DNA of 64,000 nucleotides from Croceimicrobium hydrocarbonivorans (GTDB taxonomy: Bacteria; Bacteroidota; Bacteroidia; Flavobacteriales; Schleiferiaceae): the NCBI RefSeq assembly GCF_014524565.1, contig NZ_CP060139.1:1433501-1497500 (forward strand), read 5' to 3'. How positions within the stretch are numbered: the first letter of the stretch is position 1; every line of letters starts with the position of its first letter. The notes under the pieces were generated by a model. That model was not told where the DNA came from and made no database searches. It saw nothing but the letters and a program-made list of their open reading frames with translations. Below, in pieces: positions 30,225-52,041 of this stretch. The position numbers and the translations under genes are program-made.

Positions 30225-30281
30225 TGTGATTTACATCACAAAGGTGCCACCGCAAGTTTGGCTACACTATGATTTTCATCA
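30225..30281 (-). promoter_or_regulatory. FNR-type promoter of yceI with two boxes
   Basis: Box 1 at 30270-30281 is TGAT-GAAA-ATCA read on the minus strand. The -7 element CACCTTTG (30246-30239) ends 36.5 bases from its centre. Box 2 at 30227-30238 lies 43 bases further down and is embedded in the CRP-like palindrome TGTGATTTACATCACA (30225-30240), overlapping the expected start of transcription near 30234. No TTG at -33. Confidence 0.75.
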
Positions 30282-30300
30282 GCTAAAAAGCTGAGAAATA

Positions 30301-30597
30301 TCAGTTATTCAAGTCCCCAAAATAGGCCTCATAAGCCGGACTTAATTTAGCCTCCAGTTCGGACATGGTTACTAAGCCATTGGCCCTGAAGTGCTCACGA
30401 CCTTCTACAAAAAATAAGAGTCCAGGAACGGCCAACATGCGATGCTGACCGGCTAATTCTCGATGCTGACGAGCGTCTAATCGCTGCACCTTAATATGTG
30501 GGAATTTGTTTTGTAAAAGCTGCTCGACCTTGGGCCAAAGCGCATGGCAAATTCCACAATCATCCTGGTAGAAATACCAAAATTCCAAAGTTTCCAT
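30301..30597 (-). CDS. Thioredoxin-like protein
   Basis: 98 residues from ATG 30597. Thioredoxin fold with CxxC 'CGIC' near residue 12 and the cis-Pro loop 'VPGLLFF' near 58. No signal peptide, so cytoplasmic. Placed between yceI and the copper ATPase; a role in thiol redox control is likely, exact partner unknown. The longer in-frame extension upstream overlaps the divergent gene and was not used. Confidence 0.8.
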   Translation of the reverse strand: METLEFWYFYQDDCGICHALWPKVEQLLQNKFPHIKVQRLDARQHRELAGQHRMLAVPGLLFFVEGREHFRANGLVTMSELEAKLSPAYEAYFGDLNN

Positions 30598-30598
30598 C

Positions 30599-31138
30599 TT
30601 GGCAAAATTACGACCTTTGGTTGTGCCCTTAACTAAAGAACATTTCATCGAAATCCTTCGGGCCCGCCCCCGTAAGGAAGAACTGCTTAAGTATAGTGCT
30701 GATCCCGCTTACCATCAATACTTAAGGGAAATTTGTCTTAGTGATGACCTGCAACTCAATTGGCGAGCGGCCTGGCTTTTAGCCGATTTACCTGCTACAG
30801 AGCTGCAGGCTATTTTTCCTTCGGCACAAGTTTTAATTGAGATCTTATCCAGCCCTCAAAAAGACGGCTATCTCCGCGAGATTGTAAAAATCATCAACCG
30901 CTTGAAATTGGATGAAGAGGAAGAAGGGCTATTTTATGAATCAGCCCTCAAACTTTGGGAGAATTTAGCCATGGCCTCTGCCACGCGCATTCATGCTATT
31001 CGCTCCCTTTTTAAAATCGCTGAGACTTATCCCGAATTGAAACTGGAATTGAAGGCCTATAATGACGATTTTTACTTTCAAGGCTTAAGTCCAGGAATCG
31101 CTAAACAAATTCGCAGGCTTTTTGCCGGACTAAGCTAA
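30599..31138 (+). CDS. Uncharacterised HEAT-like helical protein
   Basis: Up to 179 residues. The only early starts are TTG 30599 and 30617 or GTG 30623; with a TTG start it would sit 1 base from the divergent thioredoxin gene, so GTG 30623 is equally possible. All-helical, with HEAT-like pairs ('LNWRAAWLLADLPATELQAI', 'TRIHAIRSLFKIAETYPEL'). Family unknown. Convergent with fixI, overlapping its end by 9 bases. Confidence 0.6.
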   Translation: MAKLRPLVVPLTKEHFIEILRARPRKEELLKYSADPAYHQYLREICLSDDLQLNWRAAWLLADLPATELQAIFPSAQVLIEILSSPQKDGYLREIVKIINRLKLDEEEEGLFYESALKLWENLAMASATRIHAIRSLFKIAETYPELKLELKAYNDDFYFQGLSPGIAKQIRRLFAGLS

Positions 31139-33496
31139 GACCTTGCGTGCCTTCCAAGCCGTGTAGAGGGAGCTGTAAACCACCACCGTAACCGAGGATA
31201 TAGGCATTAATATCGCAGCAAATACCGGACTTAAATAACCGGCCACCGCCACAGACAAGCCCACAAGATTATACAAGAGCGACAAGGCAAAGGCCCGATA
31301 TACAATAGGCTTATACATCCGCGAAAGCGCTAAAAATCGATGCAGCTTCGGAAAGGCATCGGCCATTAATAAGGCATCGCTGGCCGGGAAAAAGCTAATA
31401 TCCTTTTCACAAAGGCTAATCCCCACTTCACTCTGCTGCAAAGCACCGGCATCATTTAATCCATCGCCCAGCATTAATACCTTTTGTCCCTTGCTTTGCA
31501 AAGCTTGCAGGTATTCTAATTTTTGATGTGGACTACAATTAAACTGCAAATCCACCTTTGAACCTAATATCTGGCGGAAGCGCCTTTCTTCGGCGGCATT
31601 ATCACCACTTAAAAGGCTAAGGCTATACTTATCACTGAGGTCGGCGGCAATTTGATCTAAAGCATCACGGGTTTGCTGGTAAAAGCTGAAATAGCCCAAA
31701 ACCTTGGCGTCCTTTTCCAGATAAACCGCAGTGGTATTCGCTTCATCACTTAAGCCTAAGAAGGAGGCTTTTCCCAAACGGTAATAGGAGGCTCGCACCC
31801 GAGCGCCAACGCCTTCGCCACTGGCTTCTTCAAATTGTAAAACCTGACTAGCATCGGCCTCCTCAATTTGCAAATGCCCCAATAGCACTTTGGCTAAAGG
31901 GTGTTGAGCATTTAAGGCAATGGTAGCCACCGCCCATTGATCTTCAAATAAAAGCTGATCGCCATGCCACTGCACCTCAATACTGTCGGTACGGGTGAGG
32001 GTTCCGGTTTTATCGAAAACCACCTGATTCAGTTCCGGAAGCCTTTGCAGCACGGTATTATTCTTTAGAAAGAAACCGAAACGTCCAAACCAACGCATCA
32101 TGCTACCCGCGGTAAAAGGTTCGGCCAAGGCCAAGGCACAAGGACAGGCTACTATCAATACCGAAGTAAAGACTAAAACTGCTTTGGCAGAATCGATCTG
32201 CCACCAAATCAAACCCGAAACTAAGGCCACAATCAAAATGGCAGGGGTGAAATACTGACTTACTCTATCACTTAAGGTGCGCGACTTTTTAGTGCTGGCT
32301 TCTTCCTTAAAAGCATCTTGAGACCATAAGGAGCTGAGATAGGAATGATCAACGCTGCTTTGCACTTCGAGCAGGGTAGATTTTCCCAAAAGACGGGCAC
32401 CAGCGTATATTTTGGCACCGGCCTCTTTTTGCACCGGCAAACTCTCTCCACTTAAATAGCTGTAATCCCAGCGCGAATCCTGATCCAAAACTATACTATC
32501 GGCAGGTAAAACTTCACCTTGACGAATCCGAATTCGATCGCCTTCTTCCAGCTCATCAATGCCCACTGGCTTTTCGGATCCATCCTCCATCAAACGATTT
32601 GCTGCTAAGGGAAGGAAGGAACGTAAATCGCGATCGAAACTAAAATTGCGATAGGTTTTCGCCTGATACCATTTTCCAATTAAGAGGAAAAATACCAAAG
32701 CCGTGAGACTATCAAAATAGCCCGAACCCACTTGAGCAATCACCTCATAGGCACTGCGACTAAATAAAACCACAATGCCCAAAGCAATGGGAAGATCTAT
32801 ACTTAAAGCTCCGGCGCGCAGCGATTTCCAAGCGGTACTGAAATAGTCCTTTGCCGAAAACAGCACCACCGGCAGGCTAAAGGCCATCATTAAATAACGG
32901 AAGAAACTTTGCAGTTCAGGATCGTATTGCAAGCTGCCATCCAAATACTCCGGTAAGGCTAAAAGCATGGTATTCCCGAAAAAGAAACCCGCTACTCCTA
33001 ATTGCATTAAAAGCTTATTGCGGCCTTTCCGGCTTTCGCCGAGATGCGTTTTAAAATCTGGCTTATAGCCGATATGATCTAAGATCGCGGCAATCTCAGA
33101 GAGTTGAATCAGATCCTTCCGAAAACGAATATCGGCTTCCTTCTTAGAGAAATGCACCTGTACCGAGAGGATCCCCTTTTCAATAGCGGCTAGGTTCTCC
33201 AATAAATAAATGCATGAAGAACAATGAATGGCGGGTAAGTGAATCGCGATCCGTGCTTGCTGCTCATCTTCGAATTTGCAGAGCTTAGCCCTAATACTAG
33301 CCTCATCCAAATAACGCCAGGGGCCGGCATCAATCGCACTGTGATCTATCAATGAAGCATCCAAATCCATCAATTCATCTACCACCTTGCAACCATAGCA
33401 ACAGTAGACTTTAGAAGGGTCTCTACCTTCAATTCGCTCTAAGAGCGGTTGATGGCAATGACTGCACTCCGTAAGGATTTGGGCTTCTTTGGACAT
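31130..33496 (-). CDS. ccoI: Copper-transporting P1B ATPase of cbb3 oxidase assembly (CcoI/FixI)
   Basis: 788 residues from ATG 33496. Delivers copper for CcoN. N-terminal extra Cys cluster ('CSHCHQP', 'CCYGC'), HMA-type 'HCSSC' near 98, about eight membrane helices, 'SGESLPV', the ion-channel 'CPCALALA', phosphorylation site 'DKTGTLTR' and 'GDGLNDA'. The first ATG of the open frame lies in the promoter region and was rejected. The predicted transcript start coincides with this ATG, so the mRNA may be leaderless. Confidence 0.93.
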   Translation of the reverse strand: MSKEAQILTECSHCHQPLLERIEGRDPSKVYCCYGCKVVDELMDLDASLIDHSAIDAGPWRYLDEASIRAKLCKFEDEQQARIAIHLPAIHCSSCIYLLENLAAIEKGILSVQVHFSKKEADIRFRKDLIQLSEIAAILDHIGYKPDFKTHLGESRKGRNKLLMQLGVAGFFFGNTMLLALPEYLDGSLQYDPELQSFFRYLMMAFSLPVVLFSAKDYFSTAWKSLRAGALSIDLPIALGIVVLFSRSAYEVIAQVGSGYFDSLTALVFFLLIGKWYQAKTYRNFSFDRDLRSFLPLAANRLMEDGSEKPVGIDELEEGDRIRIRQGEVLPADSIVLDQDSRWDYSYLSGESLPVQKEAGAKIYAGARLLGKSTLLEVQSSVDHSYLSSLWSQDAFKEEASTKKSRTLSDRVSQYFTPAILIVALVSGLIWWQIDSAKAVLVFTSVLIVACPCALALAEPFTAGSMMRWFGRFGFFLKNNTVLQRLPELNQVVFDKTGTLTRTDSIEVQWHGDQLLFEDQWAVATIALNAQHPLAKVLLGHLQIEEADASQVLQFEEASGEGVGARVRASYYRLGKASFLGLSDEANTTAVYLEKDAKVLGYFSFYQQTRDALDQIAADLSDKYSLSLLSGDNAAEERRFRQILGSKVDLQFNCSPHQKLEYLQALQSKGQKVLMLGDGLNDAGALQQSEVGISLCEKDISFFPASDALLMADAFPKLHRFLALSRMYKPIVYRAFALSLLYNLVGLSVAVAGYLSPVFAAILMPISSVTVVVYSSLYTAWKARKVLA

Positions 33497-33500
33497 AGAG

Positions 33501-33551
33501 CAAAGGTGCCGTGATTCACCTTGGTTGACTATGACATTTATCATATCTTTG
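33501..33551. promoter_or_regulatory. Divergent FNR-type promoter of ccoI and fnr
   Basis: Box TGAC-ATTT-ATCA at 33532-33543. On the minus strand, -7 element CACCTTTG (33508-33501) ends 36.5 bases from the box centre, as in yceI; both share GGCACCTTTG. On the plus strand, TTG 33521-33523, 20 bases and TATCTTTG 33544-33551 form a full promoter for fnr, with the box lying between its two elements. Inferred: activation of ccoI and repression of fnr by the same site. Confidence 0.75.
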
Positions 33552-33579
33552 ATAGACCAAACCTCAAAAACTCCCTCGA

Positions 33580-34278
33580 TTGGAAACTCCTAACCATTGT
33601 CAATTCTGCGCTCAACATCCCGACAGTGCCTTTCACGGTATGAGCCGGGAAGGGCTGGAGGAAATCAGTCAATTAAAAACTTGTGTAAGCTTCCGTAAAG
33701 GTCAGGTTATCATGCACGAAGGGGCCCGTCCTCAAGGAGTGTATTGCATACACAAGGGTAAGATTAAACTCTACACTTTAGGTACCGAGGGTAAAGAGCA
33801 AATTATTCGTTTCGTTACTCGTGGGGATTTAATTGGTTACCGAAGCATATTAAGTGATGAACCTATCAGTGCTTCTGCCACTGCGCTCGAAGATACCTTC
33901 GCTTGCTATATTCCTAAATCTTCCTTCTTTAAAGTAATTGAGGATAATCCCAAGTTTTCCTTAAACCTCTTAAAGCTTTCTTGCCACGAATTGGGTGAAG
34001 CTGGTAAAATGATCACCAGCCTGGCTCAAAAAAACGTGAAGGAACGTTTAGCAGAAATCCTCCTGATTTTGAACACCACTTTCGGTGAAGATGAGGAAGG
34101 ATATATCGACATTAATCTCACTCGTGAGGAGATTGCCAATATGGTGGGCACCGCAACCGAATCGGTAATTCGACTAATTTCAGAATTACGTAAAGAAGGT
34201 TATATCCGCTCCAAAGGCAAGCGTATTGGCCTCGAAGACCGATCAGCATTACGCGCCATGGCATCAGTTTTTGAATAA
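33580..34278 (+). CDS. fnr: Crp/Fnr-family transcriptional regulator (Fnr-like)
   Basis: 232 residues from TTG 33580. I kept this start because the N-terminal CxxC (C7, C10) is typical of Bacteroidota Fnr proteins and would be lost at the next ATG (codon 21); no other start exists upstream in frame. A further Cys is C35. cNMP-fold domain about 25-140; Crp-type HTH 'EEIANMVGTATESVIRLISELR' near 190. Likely oxygen sensor controlling the cbb3 genes around it through TGA(C/T)-N4-ATCA boxes. Whether it carries an iron-sulphur cluster cannot be told. Confidence 0.88.
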   Translation: METPNHCQFCAQHPDSAFHGMSREGLEEISQLKTCVSFRKGQVIMHEGARPQGVYCIHKGKIKLYTLGTEGKEQIIRFVTRGDLIGYRSILSDEPISASATALEDTFACYIPKSSFFKVIEDNPKFSLNLLKLSCHELGEAGKMITSLAQKNVKERLAEILLILNTTFGEDEEGYIDINLTREEIANMVGTATESVIRLISELRKEGYIRSKGKRIGLEDRSALRAMASVFE

Positions 34279-34279
34279 C

Positions 34280-34322
34280 TGATAAAAATCATAGACCCAA
34301 TTTTCAACAGGCAGTATTTTCG
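34280..34322 (+). promoter_or_regulatory. FNR-type promoter of the cNMP-fold gene
   Basis: Box TGAT-AAAA-ATCA at 34280-34291, starting 2 bases after the fnr stop. The -7 element TATTTTCG (34315-34322, one mismatch) ends 36.5 bases from the box centre. No -33 TTG. Confidence 0.65.
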
Positions 34323-34340
34323 TCAACAAGAATACTAGCC

Positions 34341-34781
34341 GTGGACTTTTTAAACATCCCAAAGAAAATACGTGAGATCTTGCCTTTTGAGGCATCCCCG
34401 TTTATTGTGGAAGAAATTGCCATGCAAAGCAGTTATATTCCCTTTTCTGGTCCGGGAGAAATTTTGTTTAAAAAAGGCGACCCTGCTTTAGGATTCTACT
34501 GGGTTCTAAATGGCGAAGCCGAAATTATCATCCCTAATAAACGATCCATAATCCTAAGCCCTGGCGCTATGGCTGGCTTGGATTCCTTTATTGAAGAAGA
34601 CAGTGTGCCCTTTGACATCATCAATCGCGGGCGCAAACTGGACTGCATTTTTATTGATCGCCGTTGCTATAATAATATGCGGGAACACCATGAGTTTAAC
34701 CGCTATATGAACCGCATGGTACTGAATTGCCTGCGCAGCTATCGGAATCTGCTTCTTCCTTCCGAAAGAATCTACTTGTAA
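34341..34781 (+). CDS. Cyclic-nucleotide-binding-fold protein without HTH
   Basis: 146 residues from GTG 34341; single Crp-like beta-roll ('YIPFSGPGEILFKKGDPALGFYWVLNGEAE' region, about 30-120) and a C-terminal helix, but no DNA-binding domain. The gene follows fnr and has its own FNR-type promoter, so it is probably part of the low-oxygen response, perhaps as a partner or modulator of Crp/Fnr dimers. Ligand unknown. Confidence 0.75.
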   Translation: MDFLNIPKKIREILPFEASPFIVEEIAMQSSYIPFSGPGEILFKKGDPALGFYWVLNGEAEIIIPNKRSIILSPGAMAGLDSFIEEDSVPFDIINRGRKLDCIFIDRRCYNNMREHHEFNRYMNRMVLNCLRSYRNLLLPSERIYL

Positions 34782-34811
34782 TAGTATCTTTAGCCCCCTA
34801 TTCCCAAGGCT

Positions 34812-35996
34812 ATGCATCAGGTTGATGTGTGCATTGTAGGGGCTGGTCCTGCAGGAAGCACACTTTCCCATTTCCTCCATAAATTAAATATCGATCACCT
34901 CTTGATCGATAAAAGCCAATTCCCTCGCGATAAAATTTGCGGGGATGGCATTACTGTAGATGTTCTCAATGTTCTGAAAAGAATTGATCCGAGCTTATTG
35001 GAAAAATTCAGTCAGGAGTCAGAAATGCTTCCTTCCTGGGGCTTTTGTTTTCACGGCCCCAAAGGACAAGAACTGCGCTACGACTTTAAAGAGGCGGGCT
35101 TTCCGGTGGCGCCATTTTTTACTTCGCGCCGCATGGACCTCGATGATTTTCTCATTCGAGAATTACCAGCAGGAGGTAGCGGTGAATTTTGGCCAGAAAC
35201 GGAATTAAAAGGCCTGCAAAGATTGGATGAAGGCTTTGATGCCCTAGTGCATCGCCAAGGAGAAGAAGAAAAAATCCGTTGCAAAATTATCATTGGCGCC
35301 GAAGGGGAAAAGCCAGTAGTTACACGCTATTTAGGTCTGGAACATTTTAGAGAAAAAGATCACCTCCTGGCGGCCATTCGCATTTACTATAAAGACCTCC
35401 AAGGCTTTGACCCTGGAAATCACCTCGAGTTTTTCTTTGATCCCCATCTATTACCTGGCTATTTCTGGGCATTCCCGCTGAGCAATAATGAGGCGAATGT
35501 GGGACTGGGAATGTTAAGCACCAGCATTGCAGCCAAAAAGATAAACCTAAAAAAGAGCTTCGAAGAAATAATTCAAAGAAACCCGCATATCGCGCCACGT
35601 TTTGAAGGGGCGGTGGCTCTGGAAAAAACCAAAGGTTGGGGACTACCCATTATGACCCCCAAACGTAAGATTGGCGGAGACGGCTATGCCCTTATTGGTG
35701 ATGCCGGAGGAATGATTGAAGCCTTTACCGGTAAAGGTATTGGCCCTGGAATGATGAGTGCCCGCATCGCCTCTGAGCATATCGAAAAAGCCTTTGCCCA
35801 GAAGAACTTTAATTTTCAGGCCTATCACGATCATATGTATCGCTATTACCGTAGTGAGATTAAGCATACCTATCGACTACAAAAAAGCCTAAAGCATACC
35901 TGGATATTAAATCCGGTGATGAGCCTGGCCTCTTGGTCGCCCTTAACTCGCTATGCTGAAGATCGCATGATCCGCGATTTCTTAAAATGGGTCTGA
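34812..35996 (+). CDS. Geranylgeranyl reductase-family FAD oxidoreductase
   Basis: 394 residues; FAD Rossmann 'VCIVGAGPAGSTLS' at the N-terminus, 'RDKICGDGI' near 41, and the second FAD motif 'YALIGDAGGMIEAFTGKGIGPGMMSA' region near 295. The family reduces isoprenoid double bonds or hydroxylates lipids/quinones; exact substrate unknown. Located 30 bases downstream of the cNMP-fold gene, possibly co-transcribed. Confidence 0.85.
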   Translation: MHQVDVCIVGAGPAGSTLSHFLHKLNIDHLLIDKSQFPRDKICGDGITVDVLNVLKRIDPSLLEKFSQESEMLPSWGFCFHGPKGQELRYDFKEAGFPVAPFFTSRRMDLDDFLIRELPAGGSGEFWPETELKGLQRLDEGFDALVHRQGEEEKIRCKIIIGAEGEKPVVTRYLGLEHFREKDHLLAAIRIYYKDLQGFDPGNHLEFFFDPHLLPGYFWAFPLSNNEANVGLGMLSTSIAAKKINLKKSFEEIIQRNPHIAPRFEGAVALEKTKGWGLPIMTPKRKIGGDGYALIGDAGGMIEAFTGKGIGPGMMSARIASEHIEKAFAQKNFNFQAYHDHMYRYYRSEIKHTYRLQKSLKHTWILNPVMSLASWSPLTRYAEDRMIRDFLKWV

Positions 35997-36042
35997 ACAA
36001 TCAGGGGGAGAACTGTTATTTTAAAGGAATAATTCTCCCGCC

Positions 36043-37266
36043 ATGCACACCGAAAAAATTCGCTTTAGCAGTCCCGAAGGCCATGAACTAGCCGGTATAC
36101 TGGATCGCGCCCCGGGCTTTATACATGGCCCTACCGCTCTCTTTGCCCATTGCTTTACCTGTGGAAAAGACCTAAAAGCGATTCGGAATTTATCACTGGC
36201 CCTAGGTCAACATGGGATCAATACCCTGCGTTTCGACTTCACCGGCTTAGGTCAGTCAGAAGGAGAATTTCGCGATACCAATTTTAGCTCCAATCTGGAG
36301 GATTTACTGGCTGCGGCCGAATACCTAAAATCCCGAAACTGTGCTCCGGAAATTTTAATTGGCCATTCCTTAGGTGGAGCTGCCGTATTAATGGCCGCCC
36401 AAAAAATACCTAGCGTTAAAGCTGTTGTTACGATTGGCGCTCCCTCCGAAGCCCACCACGTGCAGCATCTCTTCGAAGAAAAGCTAGAGGAAATTAAGGG
36501 AACTGGTGAAGCCAAAGTATCGATTAGTGGAAGGCCTCTTACCATTAAGCGACAGTTTATCCAAGATCTGGGAGCCTATAGCATCAGTGAAAAGCTCAGT
36601 ACCTGGCGAAACCGAGCTTTATTGGTCTTACATTCCCCTCAGGACCGAATTGTGGGAATTGAAAATGCCCGAGAAATATATAAAGCGGCCCATCACCCCA
36701 AAAGCTTTGTTTCTTTAGATGGGGCTGATCATCTGCTAAGCGATGAAGCAGACTCCCGTTATGTTGGCGAACTAATTGCCTCTTGGTCTGAGCGCTATTT
36801 AAATAGTCAAAAATCTCCCCCTCCTCTAAAATCCGACAGCCTGGTTTTAGCGCAAATCGACCGCGAACCCTTTGTCAGTCAAATTAAAGCAGGGGACTTC
36901 TTGCTTTTGGCCGATGAGCCGGAAGACTTAGGCGGGCAAAACCGCGGCCCCAATCCTTATGAATACTTAGCCACAGCTTTAGCGGCCTGCACCGTAATGA
37001 CTCTACGAATGTATGCCGATCGCAAAGGCTGGCCATTGGAAGAAGCGCGAGTGCATATCGCCTTTGATGCCGATTATAAGCAAGATGCGCTGGAATGCGA
37101 AAATCAAAAACCCAAATTAGGGAAGTTTACGCGCCGGATTGAATTTATAGGTGACTTGGATGAAAAGCAAGAGGAACGCCTCTTGCAAATCGCCAATCGC
37201 TGTCCGGTGCATCGCAATTTAGAAGCGGGAATGAGCATTGAAACAAAAAAATTGGAGCCCTCTTAA
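36043..37266 (+). CDS. Bifunctional alpha/beta hydrolase/OsmC-family protein
   Basis: 407 residues: an N-terminal alpha/beta hydrolase (about 1-255; 'GHSLGGAAV' nucleophile elbow, 'LHSPQDRIVG', 'ADHLL') fused to a C-terminal OsmC peroxiredoxin domain (about 275-400) with its two active Cys in 'LAACTVMTLRMYAD' and 'NRCPVHRNLE'. This fusion is well known in Bacteroidota. The OsmC part reduces organic hydroperoxides; the hydrolase part may release them from lipid esters. Confidence 0.92.
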   Translation: MHTEKIRFSSPEGHELAGILDRAPGFIHGPTALFAHCFTCGKDLKAIRNLSLALGQHGINTLRFDFTGLGQSEGEFRDTNFSSNLEDLLAAAEYLKSRNCAPEILIGHSLGGAAVLMAAQKIPSVKAVVTIGAPSEAHHVQHLFEEKLEEIKGTGEAKVSISGRPLTIKRQFIQDLGAYSISEKLSTWRNRALLVLHSPQDRIVGIENAREIYKAAHHPKSFVSLDGADHLLSDEADSRYVGELIASWSERYLNSQKSPPPLKSDSLVLAQIDREPFVSQIKAGDFLLLADEPEDLGGQNRGPNPYEYLATALAACTVMTLRMYADRKGWPLEEARVHIAFDADYKQDALECENQKPKLGKFTRRIEFIGDLDEKQEERLLQIANRCPVHRNLEAGMSIETKKLEPS

Positions 37267-37296
37267 CTTTTGCTTAATACCCGCTTAATAATTTTT

Positions 37297-37304
37297 TAAT
37301 TTTG
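37297..37304 (+). promoter_or_regulatory. -7 element of the HAD-like gene
   Basis: TAATTTTG, a perfect TAnnTTTG, 19 bases before the ATG. The nearest TTG (37270-37272) is 24 bases upstream, longer than usual, so the -33 element is uncertain. Confidence 0.5.
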
Positions 37305-37323
37305 TGCTCCGCGAAAATGGAGC

Positions 37324-37983: not shown

Positions 37984-37993
37984 GCTTATACGC

Positions 37994-38023
37994 TTGAGAT
38001 TGAATTTGTCTTTGCTACATTTA
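37994..38023 (+). promoter_or_regulatory. Promoter of the aldehyde dehydrogenase gene
   Basis: TTG 37994-37996, 19 bases, TACATTTA 38016-38023 (one mismatch to TAnnTTTG). Transcription should start near 38030, after the first ATG (38028), which favours the second ATG (38040) as the start of translation. Confidence 0.6.
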
Positions 38024-38039
38024 AGCAATGCTAAAAGCT

Positions 38040-39452: not shown

Positions 39453-39458
39453 ACTAAA

Positions 39459-39490: not shown

Positions 39491-39496
39491 GAAATA

Positions 39497-40383: not shown

Positions 40384-40423
40384 AATTTTACTTATTCGTT
40401 TTTGTTTATACTATTAGAACCAT

Positions 40424-41150: not shown

Positions 41151-41152
41151 TA

Positions 41153-43356: not shown

Positions 43357-43403
43357 AAGCGGGATTTTTAGAACTTTGCAAAAGTACAAAAGATGCTGCC
43401 ATC

Positions 43404-44327: not shown

Positions 44328-44365
44328 GATTTCGAGGGTCTGAAAGGGCTGCTTTCGACCAAAGC

Positions 44366-44408
44366 TGACAAAAATCATTTTATCCACTTAGGTGCCCCAA
44401 TACTTTTG
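44366..44408 (+). promoter_or_regulatory. FNR-type promoter of the ccoS-ccoNO operon
   Basis: Box TGAC-AAAA-ATCA (44366-44377) and perfect -7 element TACTTTTG (44401-44408); centre-to-G distance 36.5 bases. No TTG at -33. If transcription starts about 5 bases after the G, the box is centred at -41.5, as in class II FNR promoters. Confidence 0.8.
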
Positions 44409-44431
44409 AAACACAAATTGAAGGGACACCT

Positions 44432-44596
44432 ATGTCGGCAATCTACATTCTCATCTCTATTAGTTTTCTCGTAGCTATTGGCTTTTTAGCGGCTTTCATC
44501 TGGAGCATCAAAAACGGCCAGTACGAGGACGACTATTCCCCGAGTGTTCGAATGTTGAAAGACGATCATGCTCCGAACCACAGACCAAAATTGTAG
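44432..44596 (+). CDS. ccoS: cbb3 oxidase assembly protein CcoS
   Basis: 54 residues, too short for many gene finders: one membrane helix ('YILISISFLVAIGFLAAFIW') followed by the conserved 'SIKNGQYEDDYSPSVRMLKDD'. CcoS is needed for cofactor insertion into cbb3 oxidase. Starts 23 bases after the -7 element and ends 3 bases before ccoNO, heading the operon. Confidence 0.93.
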   Translation: MSAIYILISISFLVAIGFLAAFIWSIKNGQYEDDYSPSVRMLKDDHAPNHRPKL

Positions 44597-44599
44597 ACT

Positions 44600-46765
44600 A
44601 TGCAATCAGAAACCTTTTTTTACGACAATAAGATCGTAAGAAACTTCACCATCGCCACCATTATCTGGGGCGTAATCGGCCTCCTAGTAGGTATTTGGGT
44701 GGCGTTCTCTCTGGTTTTCCCAGAAACTCTGAACCCCGCTTCATGGCTTTCATTCGGACGTTTAAGAGCATTGCACACCAACGGTGCGATTTTCGCATTT
44801 GTGGGGAACGCAATCTTTGCGGGAGTTTATTACTCGCTGCAGCGCCTCTTAAAAGCACGGATGGCTTCGGATCTCCTGAGTAAAATTCACTTCTGGGGCT
44901 GGCAGCTGATCATCGTTTCGGCGGTAATCACTCTACCCTTAGGGATTAGCTCATCAAAGGAGTATGCCGAATTGGAATGGCCGATTGACATTGGCATTGC
45001 CCTGGTATGGGTAATCTTTGGCGTTAACATGTTCTGGACCATCCTTAAAAGGAGAGAGCGTCACTTATATGTGGCCATCTGGTTCTACATTGCCACCTTT
45101 GTTACGGTTGCGGTTCTGCATATTGTAAATAACTTGGAACTTCCTGTTTCCTTCACCAAGTCTTACTCCATTTTCGCCGGTGTGCAAGATGCCCTGGTGC
45201 AGTGGTGGTACGGACATAATGCGGTGGCCTTCTTCCTTACTACTCCGGTACTGGGATTGATGTACTACTTTGTACCGAAGGCCGCTAACCGTCCGGTATA
45301 TTCCTACCGACTTTCGATTGTACACTTCTGGGCTCTGATCTTTATCTATATCTGGGCCGGACCTCACCACTTACTTTACACTGCCTTACCCGATTGGGCT
45401 CAAAGTTTAGGTACTGTATTCTCTATCATGCTGATTTTCCCTTCTTGGGGTGGTATGATTAACGGTTTGCTTACGCTGAGAGGCGCTTGGGATAAAGTGC
45501 GGGATTCTGCCGTATTGAAATTCTTCGTAGTGGCGATTACCGCTTATGGTATGAGTACTTTGGAAGGTCCACTTTTAAGTTTGAAAAGCTTAAACGCGAT
45601 TGCTCACTACACTGACTGGATTCCTGCTCACGTACACATCGGTACCTTAGGTTGGAACGGATTTTTAATCTTCGGTATGATCTACTGGTTAATGCCTAAG
45701 ATGTATCGCACCAGCTTGTTCTCTGAAAAATTAGCGAATGCACACTTCTGGATTGGTACCACCGGTATTTTATTCTGGGCCCTTCCTATGTACGTTTCTG
45801 GTTTTACCCAAAGCTTAATGTGGAAAGAGTTTAACCCAGATGGAACCTTGGTATACGGTAACTTCTTGGAAACTGTAACTCAGCTTATCCCATTATACGC
45901 CACTCGTGCGATTGGTGGTAGCTTATATGTAACCGGTATGTTGATTATGGTATACAACGTAATCAAAACCGTAAAAAGCGGATCCTTCCTGGCCCAGGAA
46001 GAAGCCAGTGCACCAGCTCTTGCTGAAGACTACACTGCTCCTAAAGGCGATTACTGGCACCGTTGGATTGAGCGTAAACCCGTTCAATTAATGGTAGGTG
46101 CAACTATCGTGATTTTGATTGGTGGTGTTATCGAGATTGTTCCCACCATTATGGTGAAGAGCAATGTACCAACCATAGAAGATGTGAAACCTTATACCGC
46201 CCTTGAGCTTGAAGGTCGTGATCTTTATATCCGCGAAGGCTGTAATGCCTGCCACTCGCAAATGATTCGCCCCTTCCGTTCTGAGATCGCACGATATGGC
46301 GATTACTCTAAAGCCGGTGAATTCGTATACGATCATCCATTCCTGTGGGGATCCAAACGTACCGGTCCGGACTTACACCGTGTAGGAGGAAAATACCCAC
46401 ACAGTTGGCACTACAAGCACATGGTTGATCCTCGTAGTATGAGTGCCGGATCTATTATGCCAACCTACGAATGGTTGTCTAGCAATGAATTGGACACAGA
46501 GCTTACCAGCAAGAAATTGGAAGCTATGCAAAGCCTGGGTGTTCCTTATAGCGATGAGTACATTGCTAATGCGAATACGCATCTGATGGCTCAAGCTGAG
46601 GAAATTGCTGCCGACTTAAGCCGCGATCTGGAGCAAGAAATCAGTCCTAAGGAAGAAATGGTAGCCTTAATCGCTTACCTGCAACGCCTGGGAATCGATA
46701 TCAAAGGTGAGCACAGCAAGCATGTGGAGGCTACTACAGCCGGAACCTTAACCGCTGAAAACTAA
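44600..46765 (+). CDS. ccoNO: Fused cbb3 cytochrome c oxidase subunits I and II (CcoN-CcoO)
   Basis: 721 residues. CcoN part (about 1-480): 12 or more membrane helices with the haem/copper histidines in 'ALHTNGAIF', 'WYGHNAVAFFLT', 'AGPHHLLYT' and 'HYTDWIPAHVHIGTLG'. CcoO part (about 490-715): one membrane helix and a mono-haem cytochrome c with 'EGCNACHSQM' and distal Met in 'GSIMPTYEWL'. The fusion is known in Bacteroidota. High-affinity proton-pumping oxidase for low oxygen. Confidence 0.95.
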   Translation: MQSETFFYDNKIVRNFTIATIIWGVIGLLVGIWVAFSLVFPETLNPASWLSFGRLRALHTNGAIFAFVGNAIFAGVYYSLQRLLKARMASDLLSKIHFWGWQLIIVSAVITLPLGISSSKEYAELEWPIDIGIALVWVIFGVNMFWTILKRRERHLYVAIWFYIATFVTVAVLHIVNNLELPVSFTKSYSIFAGVQDALVQWWYGHNAVAFFLTTPVLGLMYYFVPKAANRPVYSYRLSIVHFWALIFIYIWAGPHHLLYTALPDWAQSLGTVFSIMLIFPSWGGMINGLLTLRGAWDKVRDSAVLKFFVVAITAYGMSTLEGPLLSLKSLNAIAHYTDWIPAHVHIGTLGWNGFLIFGMIYWLMPKMYRTSLFSEKLANAHFWIGTTGILFWALPMYVSGFTQSLMWKEFNPDGTLVYGNFLETVTQLIPLYATRAIGGSLYVTGMLIMVYNVIKTVKSGSFLAQEEASAPALAEDYTAPKGDYWHRWIERKPVQLMVGATIVILIGGVIEIVPTIMVKSNVPTIEDVKPYTALELEGRDLYIREGCNACHSQMIRPFRSEIARYGDYSKAGEFVYDHPFLWGSKRTGPDLHRVGGKYPHSWHYKHMVDPRSMSAGSIMPTYEWLSSNELDTELTSKKLEAMQSLGVPYSDEYIANANTHLMAQAEEIAADLSRDLEQEISPKEEMVALIAYLQRLGIDIKGEHSKHVEATTAGTLTAEN

Positions 46766-46769
46766 GGTC

Positions 46770-46964
46770 ATGCTAAAATTCATTAAACACAATATGGAGA
46801 CTATTGATGGGGTATCGATTTACCCCATCCTCTCCTTCCTTATCTTCTTTAGCATCTTTATTCTGGCCATCATTTACGTGATTCGTAAGGACCGGAAAAG
46901 CATTGAAGAAATCAGCCTCTTACCACTAAACGATAATGCCAATCCTCATGAAAAGACTAAATAG
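46770..46964 (+). CDS. ccoQ: CcoQ-like small subunit
   Basis: 64 residues, one membrane helix ('YPILSFLIFFSIFILAIIYVI'); FixQ/CcoQ in size, topology and place between ccoNO and ccoP. A second ATG at 46794 is possible. The 3' end overlaps the ccoP start. Stabilises the complex. Confidence 0.8.
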   Translation: MLKFIKHNMETIDGVSIYPILSFLIFFSIFILAIIYVIRKDRKSIEEISLLPLNDNANPHEKTK

Positions 46965-47895
46965 AACCATCATCATTTTTGTGGTCTTACTGATGGCTGG
47001 AGCAGCTGCAGTAACCACCCTGGACCCTAGCAGTTCCTCCGAAATATTAGCCAATCCCTTATACTGGTTGGTAATCGTTGCGGCCTTCTTCCTGGTAATT
47101 GCCTTTATGGCCACCTACGAAGCTTTGGAAGCAATGAAGAAAATGATCAAAGGTGCGAATGGCGAAGTAGCCGAAGAATTAATCGAAGAAGAAGACAGCT
47201 GGGTAGACGATATCCTGCATAAGTTAACCGATGCCGCGCCATTAGATCGCGAAGAAGAAGTAGCTACTGACCACGAATACGACGGTATTCGCGAATTAGA
47301 TAACAATCTTCCCCCTTGGTGGTTGATCGGATTCTATCTTTCGATTGTTTTCGCAGTGGTTTACATCTTGCGCTACCACGTTTTCCAAAGCGCGCCATTA
47401 AGTGAAGGTGAGTTAAAAATCGCATTAGTGGAGGCTGAAGCCGCTAAAGCAGAATATCTGAAAACTGCAGCGAATTTGGTAGATGAAAGCAATGTGGTTG
47501 CCCTTACCGATGAGAGTCGAATTGCAGCCGGAGCAGACATCTTTGCTAAAAACTGTGCAGTATGTCACGCCGCAGATGGTGGCGGTGGTGTAGGTCCTAA
47601 CTTGACCGACGCCTATTGGTTGCACGGAAACGACATTAAGGACGTTTTCAAAACCGTGAAATACGGTGTGCCTGCAAAAGGTATGATTGCCTGGAAAGAT
47701 CAATTAGGTGCTGCTGATATCCAAGACGTGTCTTCCTATATCCTAACACTGGAAGGTACCAGTCCTGCCAATCCTAAAGAACCCCAAGGTGAGCTCATGA
47801 GCAAGGAAGCTCCTGCTGCTACCGAAGCTACCGATAGTACAGCCAGCACTGCTGACAGTACCATCACCGCAGTAGAGGTTTCTGAGGAAGAATAA
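46948..47895 (+). CDS. ccoP: cbb3 oxidase subunit III (CcoP), single haem
   Basis: 315 residues from ATG 46948 ('MKRLNRT'); an in-frame ATG 12 bases upstream is less likely. Two membrane helices (about 30-55 and 125-145), then a single cytochrome c domain with one 'CAVCH' and Met in 'AKGMIAWKD'. Proteobacterial CcoP has two CxxCH; here only one is present. Acidic Thr/Ser-rich tail. Overlaps ccoQ by 17 bases. Confidence 0.9.
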   Translation: MKRLNRTIIIFVVLLMAGAAAVTTLDPSSSSEILANPLYWLVIVAAFFLVIAFMATYEALEAMKKMIKGANGEVAEELIEEEDSWVDDILHKLTDAAPLDREEEVATDHEYDGIRELDNNLPPWWLIGFYLSIVFAVVYILRYHVFQSAPLSEGELKIALVEAEAAKAEYLKTAANLVDESNVVALTDESRIAAGADIFAKNCAVCHAADGGGGVGPNLTDAYWLHGNDIKDVFKTVKYGVPAKGMIAWKDQLGAADIQDVSSYILTLEGTSPANPKEPQGELMSKEAPAATEATDSTASTADSTITAVEVSEEE

Positions 47896-47898
47896 ATA

Positions 47899-47921
47899 GC
47901 AGTACATTTTACTGCCTTTTT
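47899..47921 (+). terminator. Weak terminator or attenuator between ccoP and ccoG
   Basis: GCAGTA (47899-47904), loop of 5, TACTGC (47910-47915), then CTTTTTA. Short stem; may lower, rather than end, transcription into ccoG. Confidence 0.45.
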
Positions 47922-47944
47922 AAGAACATAGATACGTTTCTGAC

Positions 47945-49402
47945 ATGAAACCAAAAGACACGGAAGAAGTACTGAAGGAGACCCTGGAGATGGATCAATC
48001 CTTCCGTGACTCAGTAGCGACAATTAGTGAGAAAGGATCGAGAAATTTCTTGTTCCCCAAAAAACCAAAAGGTCGTTACACCAACCGTCGCCAAATGATG
48101 AGCTATGTGCTCTTGGCGATATTCTTTAGTCTTCCCTTCATCAAGATAGGAGGCCAACCTTTCCTTATGCTCAATGTATTGGAGCGCAAATTTGTAATCT
48201 TCGGGCAGATCTTCTGGCCCGAAGATTTTTTCATTTTTGTGATTGCCATGATCACTGGCGTACTTTTCGTTGCAGTATTTACGGTGGCTTTTGGCCGTCT
48301 TTTTTGCGGATGGATATGTCCACAAACCATTTTTATGGAGCATGTGTTCCGTAGAATTGAATACTGGATAGATGGCGACCGCAACCAGCAATTGCGCCTG
48401 GCTCGCATGCCTTGGAACGGCGAAAAAATTCGGAAGCGCGTAATTAAGAATGGGATATTCTATGCCATTTCTTTTACCATCGCCAACTTCTTTTTAATGT
48501 ATATCATCGGAAAGGATGCCTGGTTCGAAATTGTGAGCGATGCTCCTTCTGAACACCTAGGAGGCTTGAGTGGAATGCTCATTTTCTCCGGTGTATTCTT
48601 CTTTGTCTTTGCCTGGTTCCGGGAGCAAGCCTGTATTATTGTTTGCCCTTATGGTCGTTTGCAAGGCGCCATGCTCGATCGCAACTCGGTGGTAATTGCC
48701 TATGATTATTTACGCGGCGAGAAGCGAGGTAAATTCCGCAAAAGCGAAGATCGCAAGGCGGAAGGCAAAGGCGATTGTATTGATTGCAATCAATGTGTGG
48801 ATGTTTGCCCCACCGGAATTGACATCCGTAATGGTACGCAATTAGAGTGCATCAACTGTACGGCCTGTATTGATGCCTGCGATAATATTATGGATAAGAC
48901 CAATAAACCTAGAGGTCTGATCCGTTACGATTCTGAAAACAATATTGCCTCTGGTACCGGTAAGATTTTTACCGGACGCGTAAAGGCTTATATGGGCATT
49001 CTAGTTGTACTTTTATCAATATTCACCTACCTCTTGATGAGTAGAGCTGATGTTGAATCGATTTTCCTGAGAGTGCCTGGCCAACCGCTAACCAAGGTAG
49101 ATGAAGACACCTATAGCAATGCCTACAACTTTAAACTGCTCAATAAAACAGCAGAAGACAAGGTTTATCAATTTAAGGTAATTGAACCTACCGAAGGCAT
49201 TAGACTTAAACGTGCTGGTGAATCTGAGCTTATTGAAGTGAAAGCTTCCGAGCTAGCCCAAGGGGCGGTGATTTTGTACCTTGACACAGATCAAATGACC
49301 GGTATGACTACCGATATCAAAATCGGTGTTTACGATGGAGATGAATTGGTGGAAACCTTGAAAACTTCCTTCACCGGACCATTCATTAAACCCAAAAAAT
49401 AA
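47945..49402 (+). CDS. ccoG: cbb3 oxidase accessory protein CcoG (FixG)
   Basis: 485 residues; membrane ferredoxin-like protein. Membrane helices near 50, 88, 170, 200 and 340; two 4Fe-4S clusters in 'CIDCNQCVDVCP' and 'CINCTACIDACD'; C-terminal Ig-like FixG domain. Acts in copper reduction during cbb3 assembly. 6 bases before ccoH. Confidence 0.93.
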   Translation: MKPKDTEEVLKETLEMDQSFRDSVATISEKGSRNFLFPKKPKGRYTNRRQMMSYVLLAIFFSLPFIKIGGQPFLMLNVLERKFVIFGQIFWPEDFFIFVIAMITGVLFVAVFTVAFGRLFCGWICPQTIFMEHVFRRIEYWIDGDRNQQLRLARMPWNGEKIRKRVIKNGIFYAISFTIANFFLMYIIGKDAWFEIVSDAPSEHLGGLSGMLIFSGVFFFVFAWFREQACIIVCPYGRLQGAMLDRNSVVIAYDYLRGEKRGKFRKSEDRKAEGKGDCIDCNQCVDVCPTGIDIRNGTQLECINCTACIDACDNIMDKTNKPRGLIRYDSENNIASGTGKIFTGRVKAYMGILVVLLSIFTYLLMSRADVESIFLRVPGQPLTKVDEDTYSNAYNFKLLNKTAEDKVYQFKVIEPTEGIRLKRAGESELIEVKASELAQGAVILYLDTDQMTGMTTDIKIGVYDGDELVETLKTSFTGPFIKPKK

Positions 49403-49408
49403 CTCGTC

Positions 49409-49849
49409 ATGAAATTTAATTGGGGAACAGGGCTGGTAATAGTCCTGGCACTTTTTATTCTAGGTATGGGAACCGCTGTTTATAAAGCTACTCAAGCCCG
49501 CCATGATTTAGTGACTACAGAATACTATCAAGAGGAATTAGCCTACCAAGGCACCATTGATGGCAAGCGAAATGCTCGAGAGCTCAGTGGCCATTGTCAG
49601 CTTAAGGTTGAGGATCAAAAACTGATACTGCACTTTCCGGAGGACCTAAAAGATCAAAGCGCTAATCTGCAGGTATTAATGTACTTCCCTACCGACGCTA
49701 AAAAGGACTTTGAACTTAAGGAGGAAAACTGGAAGGTCGGATCTTATGAAGTTCCCGGCTCCAAATTAGGGGCTGGTAAATGGATTGCTAAAATTCGTTT
49801 AGAGAGCGGAGACAAAATGTATTACTTCGAGCCCGAAATTGTACTCTGA
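49409..49849 (+). CDS. ccoH: FixH-family protein (CcoH)
   Basis: 146 residues; N-terminal membrane anchor ('GTGLVIVLALFILGMGTAVY') then the FixH periplasmic domain ('LVTTEYYQEELAYQGTIDG' near 31). Needed for cbb3 assembly. Its TGA shares a base with the following ATG (TGATG). Confidence 0.9.
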   Translation: MKFNWGTGLVIVLALFILGMGTAVYKATQARHDLVTTEYYQEELAYQGTIDGKRNARELSGHCQLKVEDQKLILHFPEDLKDQSANLQVLMYFPTDAKKDFELKEENWKVGSYEVPGSKLGAGKWIAKIRLESGDKMYYFEPEIVL

Positions 49850-50535
49850 TGTACGGGGTAGCCTTTACATTCGGGCTGCTTTCTTCTTTGCATTGTTTGG
49901 CCATGTGCGGCCCTTTGCAAGCGGTAGTTATGGGTCAATGGCTGCAGAGTAAACATCAAGCCAACTGGATTAGCTACCACGCTGGGCGCTTAGGCACCTA
50001 TATGCTTTTGGCTATAATCGCCTCCTTATTGGGCTCTGGCCTAGGCATACCTGATATGCAAGGTAGTTTCACCATCCTCGCGGGCCTTATTCTTTTACTG
50101 GGTTATTTTGGCTTTAAAGCCCTGAAATGGGATCGTAAAACCTTGCAGCTTATTGGCCCCATTTTATCCAAACTACAAAGCAAAGTTCGAGGCAAAAAGC
50201 ATCCGCTTTGGTATCTCATCAGCGGAAGCTTAAACGGCCTTTTACCTTGCGGAATGGTCTACGCTGCTTTGGTTCCTGCCTTGGGTCTGAGCTCCTGGAC
50301 AGAGGCCATTCTTTATATGGGTGCTTTTGGATTGGGAACTTTACCGCTCCTCTTAAGCTTTAACCTCTTTTCGAATGCCCTATTACTTCGCTTTGGACCC
50401 TATCTCAATCGACTGATTCCCTTGAGCATCGTGCTCATTTCGGCCCTGCTTATATTAAGAGGAATGGAATTGGACATCCCCTATTTATCTCCTGAAATGC
50501 CAGTGCCGGGAGCTTCCACCGAAAGTTGTGGCTAA
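49849..50535 (+). CDS. Sulfite exporter TauE/SafE-family protein of cbb3 cluster
   Basis: 228 residues, six membrane helices; 'LSSLHCLAMCGPLQAVVMG' and 'NGLLPCGMVYAAL' are the two paired Cys motifs of the UreH/DsbD-like branch. In cbb3 clusters this protein is thought to help copper or thiol handling. Ends the operon at a terminator shared with hemN. Confidence 0.88.
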   Translation: MYGVAFTFGLLSSLHCLAMCGPLQAVVMGQWLQSKHQANWISYHAGRLGTYMLLAIIASLLGSGLGIPDMQGSFTILAGLILLLGYFGFKALKWDRKTLQLIGPILSKLQSKVRGKKHPLWYLISGSLNGLLPCGMVYAALVPALGLSSWTEAILYMGAFGLGTLPLLLSFNLFSNALLLRFGPYLNRLIPLSIVLISALLILRGMELDIPYLSPEMPVPGASTESCG

Positions 50536-50555
50536 GCCTAAAAGTAGCATTAAAA

Positions 50556-50587
50556 AAAGGCTAAACCTGTTTCCAAGCTTAGCCTTT
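50556..50587. terminator. Bidirectional terminator
   Basis: AAAGGCTAA (50556-50564) pairs with TTAGCCTTT (50579-50587); A-run before and A/T after serve the convergent cco operon and hemN. Confidence 0.8.
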
Positions 50588-50611
50588 AAAACCAAACACT
50601 ATCTAATTCTA

Positions 50612-51961
50612 TTATACCGCCTTACTAAAGGTGGGTTTTTGCAATTCGCCGGCACTTAGCTTACGGTCGAGCACCGAACATACATTGCGAATAAAAGCCC
50701 GGCCCTTGCGTGTTACTTTCACTTGATAGGGGAATACCTTAAGCAAGCCATCTTCTTCCAATAATCTAAATCGCGACTTCAAGAAATCATCAAAATAGTC
50801 GCGCTCATCCAGCCATTCTCCTTCAAAATGACAAATCAAATTGAGGAGCTTAGCGCGAGTTTTCAGATCCTCATCCGAATGGTAATGGGTCTTGATTAAA
50901 GGAGGATAATCTTCGGTATTCACCCGATGGAGATAATCCTTCAATTTCTTTTCATTCTGGGCAAATGCCGACCATACATCGCTGATGGAACTGGCTCCTA
51001 AAGCTAAAGCCAGATGGGTATGATGCGGGGTATAACCCATAAAGTTGCGATGTAATTTATGAGCACGGGCCGACTTGGCTAAATCATCTTGAGGCAGGGC
51101 GAAGTGGTCCATCCCTATTTCCTGATATCCCATTTTCAAGAAACCATCTGCTCCTAAGCGATAGAGATTCCATTTTGCTTCGCCCAGAGGCAAATCGCTT
51201 TCATCATAAGCTCTTTGACTGGGTGCTACTCCTGGCACATGAGCATAACTGTAAAAGGCAATGCGATCGGGCTTTAAGGACTCTACCCATTTTAGATTAG
51301 TCCGGATATTGCCTTCGGTTTGCTGCGGCAAACCATAAATCAAATCGAAGTTAATCGACTCATAGCCAATCTCTCGCGCCTTGCTTACAATATGTTCTAC
51401 TTGCTCTGCTGTTTGAAAGCGATTAATCAAACTGAGGATCTTAGGATCAAAATCCTGGATTCCTAAGCTTAGACGATTGAATCCTAAATTGAATAAGGTT
51501 TCCAAATGCTCATCACTGGTACTAAAAGGATGGGCCTCGAAGCTGAATGAATGAAAATCAGCCACCTCGGCTTCAGCTAAAATGCCCTCAATTAAAACTC
51601 GAAGATTTTCGGGACTGAAGAAAGTTGGTGTTCCCCCACCCAAATGAATTTCGCGAAGAATAGCTTTCTCCGGGAAACGACTGGTATACATGCGCCATTC
51701 TTTTAAAACAGCTTGCACATAGGGCTGCTCCACCAAATGATTTTTGGTAATGTGTTTATTGCAACCGCAGTAAGTACACAAACTTTCGCAATAGGGTAAA
51801 TGGATATACAAGCTTATTTCACGATCCTTTTCAAAGGCCTCCACTACCTGATTCATCCAACGCTCCGGATTCAAATCCGTACTATCCCACAAGGGAACAG
51901 CCGGATAGGAAGTATATCTAGGAACGGCCACATTGTATTTCTCTACCAGTCGGTAATCCAT
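50612..51961 (-). CDS. hemN: Oxygen-independent coproporphyrinogen III oxidase (HemN)
   Basis: 449 residues; radical SAM. 'YCESLCTYCGCNK' carries the 4Fe-4S Cys set plus the extra HemN Cys, 'GGGTPTFFS' binds SAM, with the HemN C-terminal domain after about 330. Makes protoporphyrinogen without oxygen. The promoter has an FNR-type box with the same spacing as the cco genes. Confidence 0.95.
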   Translation of the reverse strand: MDYRLVEKYNVAVPRYTSYPAVPLWDSTDLNPERWMNQVVEAFEKDREISLYIHLPYCESLCTYCGCNKHITKNHLVEQPYVQAVLKEWRMYTSRFPEKAILREIHLGGGTPTFFSPENLRVLIEGILAEAEVADFHSFSFEAHPFSTSDEHLETLFNLGFNRLSLGIQDFDPKILSLINRFQTAEQVEHIVSKAREIGYESINFDLIYGLPQQTEGNIRTNLKWVESLKPDRIAFYSYAHVPGVAPSQRAYDESDLPLGEAKWNLYRLGADGFLKMGYQEIGMDHFALPQDDLAKSARAHKLHRNFMGYTPHHTHLALALGASSISDVWSAFAQNEKKLKDYLHRVNTEDYPPLIKTHYHSDEDLKTRAKLLNLICHFEGEWLDERDYFDDFLKSRFRLLEEDGLLKVFPYQVKVTRKGRAFIRNVCSVLDRKLSAGELQKPTFSKAV

Positions 51962-51978
51962 AACATCTAATTCTAAAA

Positions 51979-52041
51979 CAAAACTAGAATGAGCCTAAGA
52001 GCTCCGAAATGACAATTATCAGCACCGAGCCGCTATTTTTG
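51979..52041. promoter_or_regulatory. Divergent promoter hemN / hemJ with FNR-type box
   Basis: Box TGAC-AATT-ATCA (52010-52021). Minus strand: TAGTTTTG (51986-51979), a perfect -7 element, ends 36.5 bases from the box centre. Plus strand: TATTTTTG (52034-52041) is a perfect -7 element for hemJ, with ATG only 4 bases later, so hemJ may be leaderless; no -33 TTG is seen on either side. Confidence 0.75.

Follow-up and report, generated by a model that had tools for sequence, protein, structure and literature searches.

The FNR regulon of Escherichia coli has class II sites centred at -41.5. FNR proper has four cysteine ligands, three N-terminal and one internal, its recognition helix reads E--SR, and its classical site is TTGAT-N4-ATCAA. 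In other Proteobacteria, FixK, FnrL and ANR control the high-affinity oxidase, its maturation and oxygen-independent haem synthesis, while the enterobacterial small RNA FnrS lies behind an FNR-type site and ends at an intrinsic terminator. The accessible parts of the literature link members of the same superfamily in Bacteroidota, namely HcpR, PgRsp and MalR, to nitrosative stress, to haem/redox and to the control of sugars. We analyzed a 64,000-nucleotide stretch of the Croceimicrobium hydrocarbonivorans genome (hereafter the window; C1:1433501-1497500 of 4,035,598 bases), in which an original prediction had proposed a five-promoter low-oxygen regulon with an fnr-like gene in its middle. Class II Crp/Fnr activation as a kind is already known. 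However, no description of a class II FNR-type regulon in Bacteroidota was found among the open-licence papers listed, as judged from titles and the beginnings of abstracts.

The locus is like the E. coli FNR regulon in its Crp/Fnr fold, its TGA...TCA half-sites, the class II position predicted for its boxes, its haem and respiratory targets, and a site within the regulator's own promoter. It differs in that the primary sigma factor and promoter are others (the -7 element is TAnnTTTG, mostly with no -33 TTG where the promoter is activated), in that the outer box bases are A/C and T rather than T and A, in that the regulator has Ile for Ser and lacks a third N-terminal Cys, and in that, in this family, the operator abuts the regulator's -7 element. 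The kinds of gene controlled are those known for FixK, FnrL and ANR, but phylum, promoter and regulator subclass differ. A candidate small RNA behind such a box, with a terminator-like end, recalls FnrS; unlike FnrS, it is a prediction from sequence and has no Rfam match near the gathering score. HcpR, PgRsp and MalR share superfamily and phylum with the regulator described here. Four features set it apart within the known kind: the context of the promoters, the half-site, the set of cysteines in the regulator and the two-way operator.

The account that fits best, and that we consider quite probable, is that the fnr-like protein acts as a class II activator and that the window holds part of an FNR-type low-oxygen regulon on promoters of the Bacteroidota primary sigma factor. 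The five boxes upstream of yceI, ccoI, a cyclic nucleoside monophosphate (cNMP)-fold gene, ccoS and hemN, together with their -7-like elements, were located where the original prediction had put them, to the base (Table 1). The constant spacing that it claimed is also exact: the gap, by which we mean the base pairs from the end of the box to the -7-like element, is 23 bp in all five, which corresponds to 36.5 from the box centre to the last G. The proposed motif, TGA(C/T)-N4-ATCA, is correct for yceI, the cNMP-fold gene and ccoS; however, the ccoI and hemN boxes read TGAT-N4-GTCA (5' to 3' towards the gene), so the pattern becomes TGAY-N4-RTCA. As predicted, the usual -33 TTG is missing: at 17-23 bp before the -7 element, no TTG occurs in any of the five. 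Of these -7 elements, two have C as their first letter and one has it as its seventh.

Within the window, TGAY-N4-ATCA gives 18 strand matches at 12 places (4.2 expected; the maximum of 100 shuffles is 10). The corrected pattern gives 24 matches on both strands, and only these five have a -7 element with at least five of six letters at gap 23. When gaps from -20 to +60 were scanned on both strands with the same letter threshold, gap 23 yielded five matches and any other gap at most one. The remaining box places sit within open frames, except 30227.

The assignment to class II depends on where transcription starts. The section of the Flavobacterium psychrophilum start-site map that bears on this point (PMC9723704, section 15) places TAnnTTTG at -12 to -5. 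Since its last G is then at -5, boxes at gap 23 would be centred at -41.5, over the -35/-33 place, as is characteristic of class II. The original prediction had assumed a start 5 bases past this G, which agrees both with this part of the map and, independently, with the ccoI start codons: across the 13 loci described below, the codon lies at G+5 in 11 and at G+6 in two, and is ATG in 12 and GTG in one. The window's longest ccoI frame begins further upstream, so the G+5 start of ccoI is itself a predicted one. With such a start the ccoI mRNA may be leaderless, its start codon being at or beside +1. The same paper, in the parts considered, reports that oxygen limitation strongly induces cbb3 oxidase and haem enzymes; neither FNR nor Crp turned up when its main text was searched for these words.

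Conservation was assessed primarily in loci around fnr. One scan with the fnr protein gave 14 loci, of which 12 are Bacteroidota loci with the gene; with the window, these make 13, and the two weak matches in other phyla (L024, L025) were left out of the counts. A promoter was accepted where a -7 element with at least five of six letters lies at gap 23, and in the 12 loci promoters were named by a computed scan, not by eye. Because orthologues are counted repeatedly, the 13-locus totals are not totals of independent promoters. There are 150 box strand matches in these loci, 41 of which are gap-23 promoters; four control palindromes gave 82 matches and no gap-23 promoter. Outside the window, 34 of the 36 gap-23 promoters stand before cNMP, ccoI, yceI, ccoS or hemN. 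The two that have no assigned gene (L018:3889 and L019:4986, + strand) are divergent from yceI. By gene, gap 23 is found for cNMP in 12 of 12 loci, for ccoI in 11 of 12, for yceI in six of the eight loci that hold it (L012, L016, L017, L018, L019, L021), for ccoS in four of four loci that carry it and in four of four fetched regions (one genome is common to both sets), and for hemN in the single locus that could contribute. In every one of the 41 gap-23 promoters the base before the box is A or C and the base at +12 is T. The selection took no account of these two bases, and the consensus is accordingly [A/C]TGAY-N4-RTCAT.

A hemN survey of 41 family genomes found a match at E <= 1e-60 in 21, and the motif placed the gene in 19, with two unscorable. 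In all 19, our own genome included, the box lies at gap 23, though gaps 22-24 were allowed; the six-letter core is perfect in 14 and has one mismatch in five, and the spacing is kept in orthologues as low as 48% identity. Four relatives were also scanned over 40 kb around fnr, and 15 of the 16 gap-23 matches there are directly before ccoI, cNMP, ccoS, yceI or hemN. However, L015, L016 and L019 come from three of these four genomes, which hence do not enlarge the sample. In the order (59 genomes), among the 150 matches listed, 35 are at gap 23 and 17 at gap 24. Over 148 genomes of the phylum, the exact pattern has 246 matches at gap 23 against 29 at gap 28, which divide into 138/11 for the order, 69/3 for the rest of the class and 39/15 for the rest of the phylum.

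The proposed regulon extends beyond the window. With the exact TAnnTTTG and gaps 8-38 (31 gaps), the whole genome has 11 matches: five at gap 23, two at 24, one at 22 and three elsewhere. Two of the five at gap 23 are the ccoS and hemN promoters of the window. Allowing at most one mismatch, there are 24 matches at gap 23, against five for the reversed pattern and seven at gap 28. We sorted these 24 matches ourselves into those before an open reading frame (ORF), before a small RNA or in coding sequence; 18 precede an ORF on the same strand, and one precedes the candidate small RNA. The five promoters originally predicted are therefore too small a number. Whether motif and spacing might be as frequent before unrelated genes was addressed in part, and gap 23 stands out against the controls; its superiority over other gaps and controls in genome, order and class agrees with the earlier statement that the spacing is hard to get by chance. 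On the sequence evidence, the original interpretation is thus supported.

Targets identified by Pfam and NCBIfam include ccoS followed by ccoNO, ccoI, hemN, yceI and the cNMP-fold protein. Others with gap 23 are nadA, followed by a frame that reads like nadB, and a cytochrome c gene followed by a Sec-dependent NosZ-like frame (411.6 bits, where the whole-protein cut-off is 625; the frame is cut by the locus end). Further targets are MbnP with a di-haem peroxidase, a cytochrome c/FTR1 protein, a rhodanese and a CoA-transferase. A second Crp/Fnr gene (L043; G000:C1:2878246-2878288, where G000 is our own genome) has a gap-23 site with one mismatch, in its -7 element, which suggests a cascade. Three genes narrowly miss the spacing: that of phosphoenolpyruvate carboxykinase has gap 22, and those of a rhodanese and of a NUBPL-type NTPase have gap 24.

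The intergenic stretch between ccoI and fnr holds a single box, and the original prediction did not see its fnr side. On that side the box directly abuts the TAnnTTTG element of fnr (gap 0) in 12 of the 13 loci; in the exception, L013, it lies 4 bp away, with the TTG still at 20 bp. Of the 13 fnr promoters, 11 have a TTG 17-23 bp before the -7 element, as against seven of the 41 at gap 23 (Fisher p 1.9e-5, ignoring kinship); for all TAnnTTTG places across the 13 loci, the baseline is 33 of 210. A search for the abutting pattern in 60 family genomes, many of which overlap the 12 fnr loci, gave 19 matches, at most one per genome, leaving 41 genomes without a match. Judged by N-terminal translation, 15 of the 19 stand before an fnr orthologue, and the opposite-side -7 element at gap 23 has at least five of six letters in 14 of these and four of six in one. 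In L083, by eye, abutting box and -7 element stand before a frame with a secreted cytochrome c-like N-terminus, not fnr. By geometry, the operator thus overlaps the core promoter of fnr itself in 12 of the 13 loci, as it would in autorepression. Because the box fills the spacer of a complete fnr promoter, from TTG to -7, repression is suggested. Taken with the ccoI side, this suggests one operator for ccoI activation in one direction and fnr autorepression in the other.

The fnr-like gene belongs to the Crp/Fnr superfamily: its product matches PF00027 (E 1.9e-24) and PF13545 (E 4.7e-19), both above the cut-off. Its closest named record is from Flavobacteriales bacterium UBA7878 (protein identity 98%). 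However, the ligand set, the site and the NCBIfam model of FNR proper do not apply. Six cysteines (C7, C10, C35, C56, C109 and C135) are invariant in the 13 regulator sequences. In alignments with FNR structures, the CxxC pair (C7, C10) and the cysteine of ACYIP (C109) align with FNR cysteines; C35, C56 and C135 lie elsewhere. In the recognition helix E194 and R198 are invariant, and the position of the FNR Ser is I197 in 13 of 13. The outer bases in the 41 gap-23 promoters, A/C before and T after, are not those of the classical FNR site (the core was our search pattern), and the altered outer base may go with the change from Ser to Ile. The protein scores 109.8 bits with the NCBIfam Fnr model PRK11161, under its cut-off of 228. 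FNR structures are among the best matches in the PDB, with another Crp/Fnr protein, 2gau, at the top. Because confidence in the predicted structure is low (mean predicted local distance difference test score 66.9, predicted TM-score 0.49), it is too weak for ligand geometry. The stand-alone cNMP-fold gene adjoins fnr, under a gap-23 box, in 13 of 13 loci; its protein has no helix-turn-helix family among its Pfam or NCBIfam matches, and could modulate the regulator.

We infer box binding, the response to oxygen and the repression of fnr in this organism, and the following mechanism is proposed on that basis. As oxygen falls, the fnr product (33580-34278) would become able to occupy, as a dimer, boxes of the form [A/C]TGAY-N4-RTCAT. 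At -41.5, the bound box would replace the usually missing -33 contact and recruit RNA polymerase, as in class II activation. The targets would include the cbb3 oxidase genes, the copper ATPase gene ccoI, hemN, the cytochrome c/NosZ-like operon, nadA and the second Crp/Fnr gene. Bound between the fnr TTG and -7 elements, the same protein would repress fnr and activate ccoI, making the operator a two-way switch with negative feedback. A bolder proposal is possible, and we make it tentatively: that the regulator represents a separate, oxygen-responsive FNR subclass of Bacteroidota with its own cluster ligands and half-site, that it governs a class-wide regulon at primary-sigma promoters mostly without a -33 element, that a single operator both switches on a leaderless ccoI mRNA and holds fnr down, and that the regulon includes an FnrS-like small RNA.

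The primary sigma factor and promoter of Bacteroidota are unusual, and the action of activators there is little described in the literature searched. A base-exact layout that recurs through the class offers a rule by which probable control by low oxygen can be read from genome sequences, many of which come from uncultured organisms, and predicts genes responsive to low oxygen, among them oxidase, haem and NosZ-like genes and a small RNA. It also makes it testable whether class II activation works alike on a different polymerase, a test for which the compact two-way operator is suited.

It is important to consider a number of observations that weigh against class II activation by the fnr-like protein, or that restrict its extent. 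A TTG at the usual distance is present in the seven gap-23 promoters counted above. The ccoI promoter of L023, with only four of six -7 letters, and the yceI promoters of L013 and L015 fail the gap-23 criterion, and outside the class the excess of gap 23 is small (39 versus 15). In our own genome, five of the 24 matches (L026, L027, L028, L037, L040) lie within coding sequence or have no gene that would fit. Sites at gap 23 also precede genes for a TonB-dependent receptor, a DUF4386 protein, a symporter and proteins without a family, none with a clear respiratory role. Outside the window there are 13 ORF-linked members, and six of them (L009, L029, L038, L039, L041, L042) lack the T after RTCA and are weaker candidates. 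The third N-terminal FNR Cys has no counterpart in the regulator, so the standard FNR ligand set is absent, and two other proteins of the genome exceed the HTH_Crp_2 cut-off and are potential binders of the box. Finally, among 28 more distant fnr loci of the phylum (E <= 1e-50), of which 190 bp were scanned, the fnr -7 element lies within 0-6 bp of a box in none, and a divergent promoter at gap 22-24 is present in only six; several have, by eye, a box 8-11 bp from a -7-like element, and many have no visible box. The two-way operator is therefore at most a family-level trait.

The other Crp/Fnr proteins raise the question of which protein uses the boxes. It is conceivable, but in our view unlikely, that the boxes are bound mainly by another member of the superfamily, e.g., an HcpR/DNR/NnrR-type nitric oxide sensor, and that the fnr-like protein is one user among several. 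With three proteins above the HTH_Crp_2 cut-off, one of the two others (L043) behind a gap-23 box of its own, and NosZ-like and rhodanese genes among the targets, this hypothesis has some appeal, and class genomes without an fnr match still have many gap-23 matches. However, the box goes with the fnr gene itself, whose -7 element it abuts in 12 of the 13 loci. Within the class, gap-23 matches average 7.2 in genomes with an fnr match (E <= 1e-50) versus 3.8 in the others (Mann-Whitney p 0.012, ignoring kinship).

A different question is what the fnr-like protein senses. That it is a carbon- or cAMP-responsive factor of the CRP/MalR type, and not an oxygen sensor, we regard as improbable. The idea draws on PMC8510549, whose accessible part predicts carbon sensing for CRP/FNR homologues of a Flavobacteriales metagenome-assembled genome that fall close to the main MalR cluster but not in it; these may or may not include a counterpart of this fnr. 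Against it are the cbb3 oxidase, haem and cytochrome genes among the targets, the FNR structures among the best PDB matches with the CxxC and ACYIP cysteines aligned, and the response of cbb3 and haem genes to oxygen limitation in the F. psychrophilum data considered. As to mere coincidence of a short palindrome with a common -7 element (TAnnTTTG occurs at 210 places in the 13 loci), we give it almost no credence: shifted gaps, the reversed pattern and control boxes all yield far fewer matches, and the hemN spacing persists in diverged orthologues. These controls refute chance as a general explanation, although it may account for the five matches in coding sequence or without a gene.

Table 1. 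Promoter elements and genes of the proposed regulon in the window (positions counted from its first base).
Feature	Sequence	Position	Strand	Remark
third yceI box	TGATGTAAATCA	30227..30238	-	directly 3' of yceI -7, over predicted start
yceI -7-like element	CACCTTTG	30239..30246	-	
yceI box	TGATGAAAATCA	30270..30281	-	centre at -41.5 if +1 is 30234
second yceI box, degenerate	TGATATTTCTCA	30292..30303	-	22 bp upstream of yceI box, centre at -63.5
ATG in ccoI frame		33496	-	G+5
ccoI -7-like element	CACCTTTG	33501..33508	-	
fnr -33 TTG		33521..33523	+	20 bp before fnr -7
shared ccoI (-)/fnr (+) operator		33532..33543	.	23 bp from ccoI -7, 0 bp from fnr -7
fnr -7 element	TATCTTTG	33544..33551	+	abuts operator
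fnr-like regulator		33580..34278	+	cNMP_binding and HTH_Crp_2, 232 amino acids, TTG start
cNMP-fold gene box	TGATAAAAATCA	34280..34291	+	gap 23 in window and 12/12 loci
cNMP-fold gene -7-like element	TATTTTCG	34315..34322	+	
stand-alone cNMP-fold protein		34341..34781	+	146 amino acids
box ahead of ccoS, ccoNO, ccoP, ccoG	TGACAAAAATCA	44366..44377	+	
ccoS -7 element	TACTTTTG	44401..44408	+	
hemN -7 element	TAGTTTTG	51979..51986	-	
hemN box	TGATAATTGTCA	52010..52021	-	

The candidate small RNA, of about 130 nucleotides, is at G000:C1:760581-760713 (L001:1548-1680) and probably belongs to the regulon. A perfect gap-23 site lies upstream, at G000:C1:760534-760576, behind which there is no convincing ORF; one 61-codon frame overlaps the terminator. 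The predicted start is L001:1548, and a terminator-like site occupies 1653-1679. A DNA search found a match in seven of seven genus genomes, the seventh short and doubtful, and the box is at gap 23 in six of them, our own included (by eye, the -7 element of L103 ends in A). In the alignment, the 5' end is conserved and the hairpins vary, with helices that differ by insertions. Each of five folded copies has a terminator-like 3' hairpin, with z from -2.5 to -4.5. A 31-base pattern, allowed at most three mismatches in 60 family genomes, gave three matches, all in our own genus, and missed the copy in our own genome, which is diverged. Three weak Rfam matches near the candidate score below half their gathering scores and were taken as chance. 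In the window, Rfam gave nothing at gathering score.

Besides the fnr promoter beyond the 33532 box, the original prediction overlooked two boxes at yceI, which has three box-like sites (window 30227-30303): a degenerate one at -63.5, one at -41.5 and one over the predicted start. A second box with at least five of six core letters occurs at offset 22 in 11 of the 41 gap-23 promoters; any other offset from 12 to 60 occurs at most twice. By eye, L012 and L016 have the third yceI box, L017 has a degenerate form of it, and L018, L019 and L021 lack it; the place of this box is possibly that of a repressor. We had also suspected, by eye, inverted repeats in the 23-bp spacers, and rejected them when the mean longest stem proved to be 2.73, against 2.72 in shuffles. 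On its other side, the hemN box is followed after 12 bp by TATTTTTG of a divergent UPF0093 gene (window 52010-52046). The ATG of this gene, at 52046, is exactly at G+5, and this may be a second two-way arrangement with a leaderless gene. Elsewhere in the window, at 1619-9328, genes resembling a type I restriction-modification set were seen by eye, with other genes interspersed.

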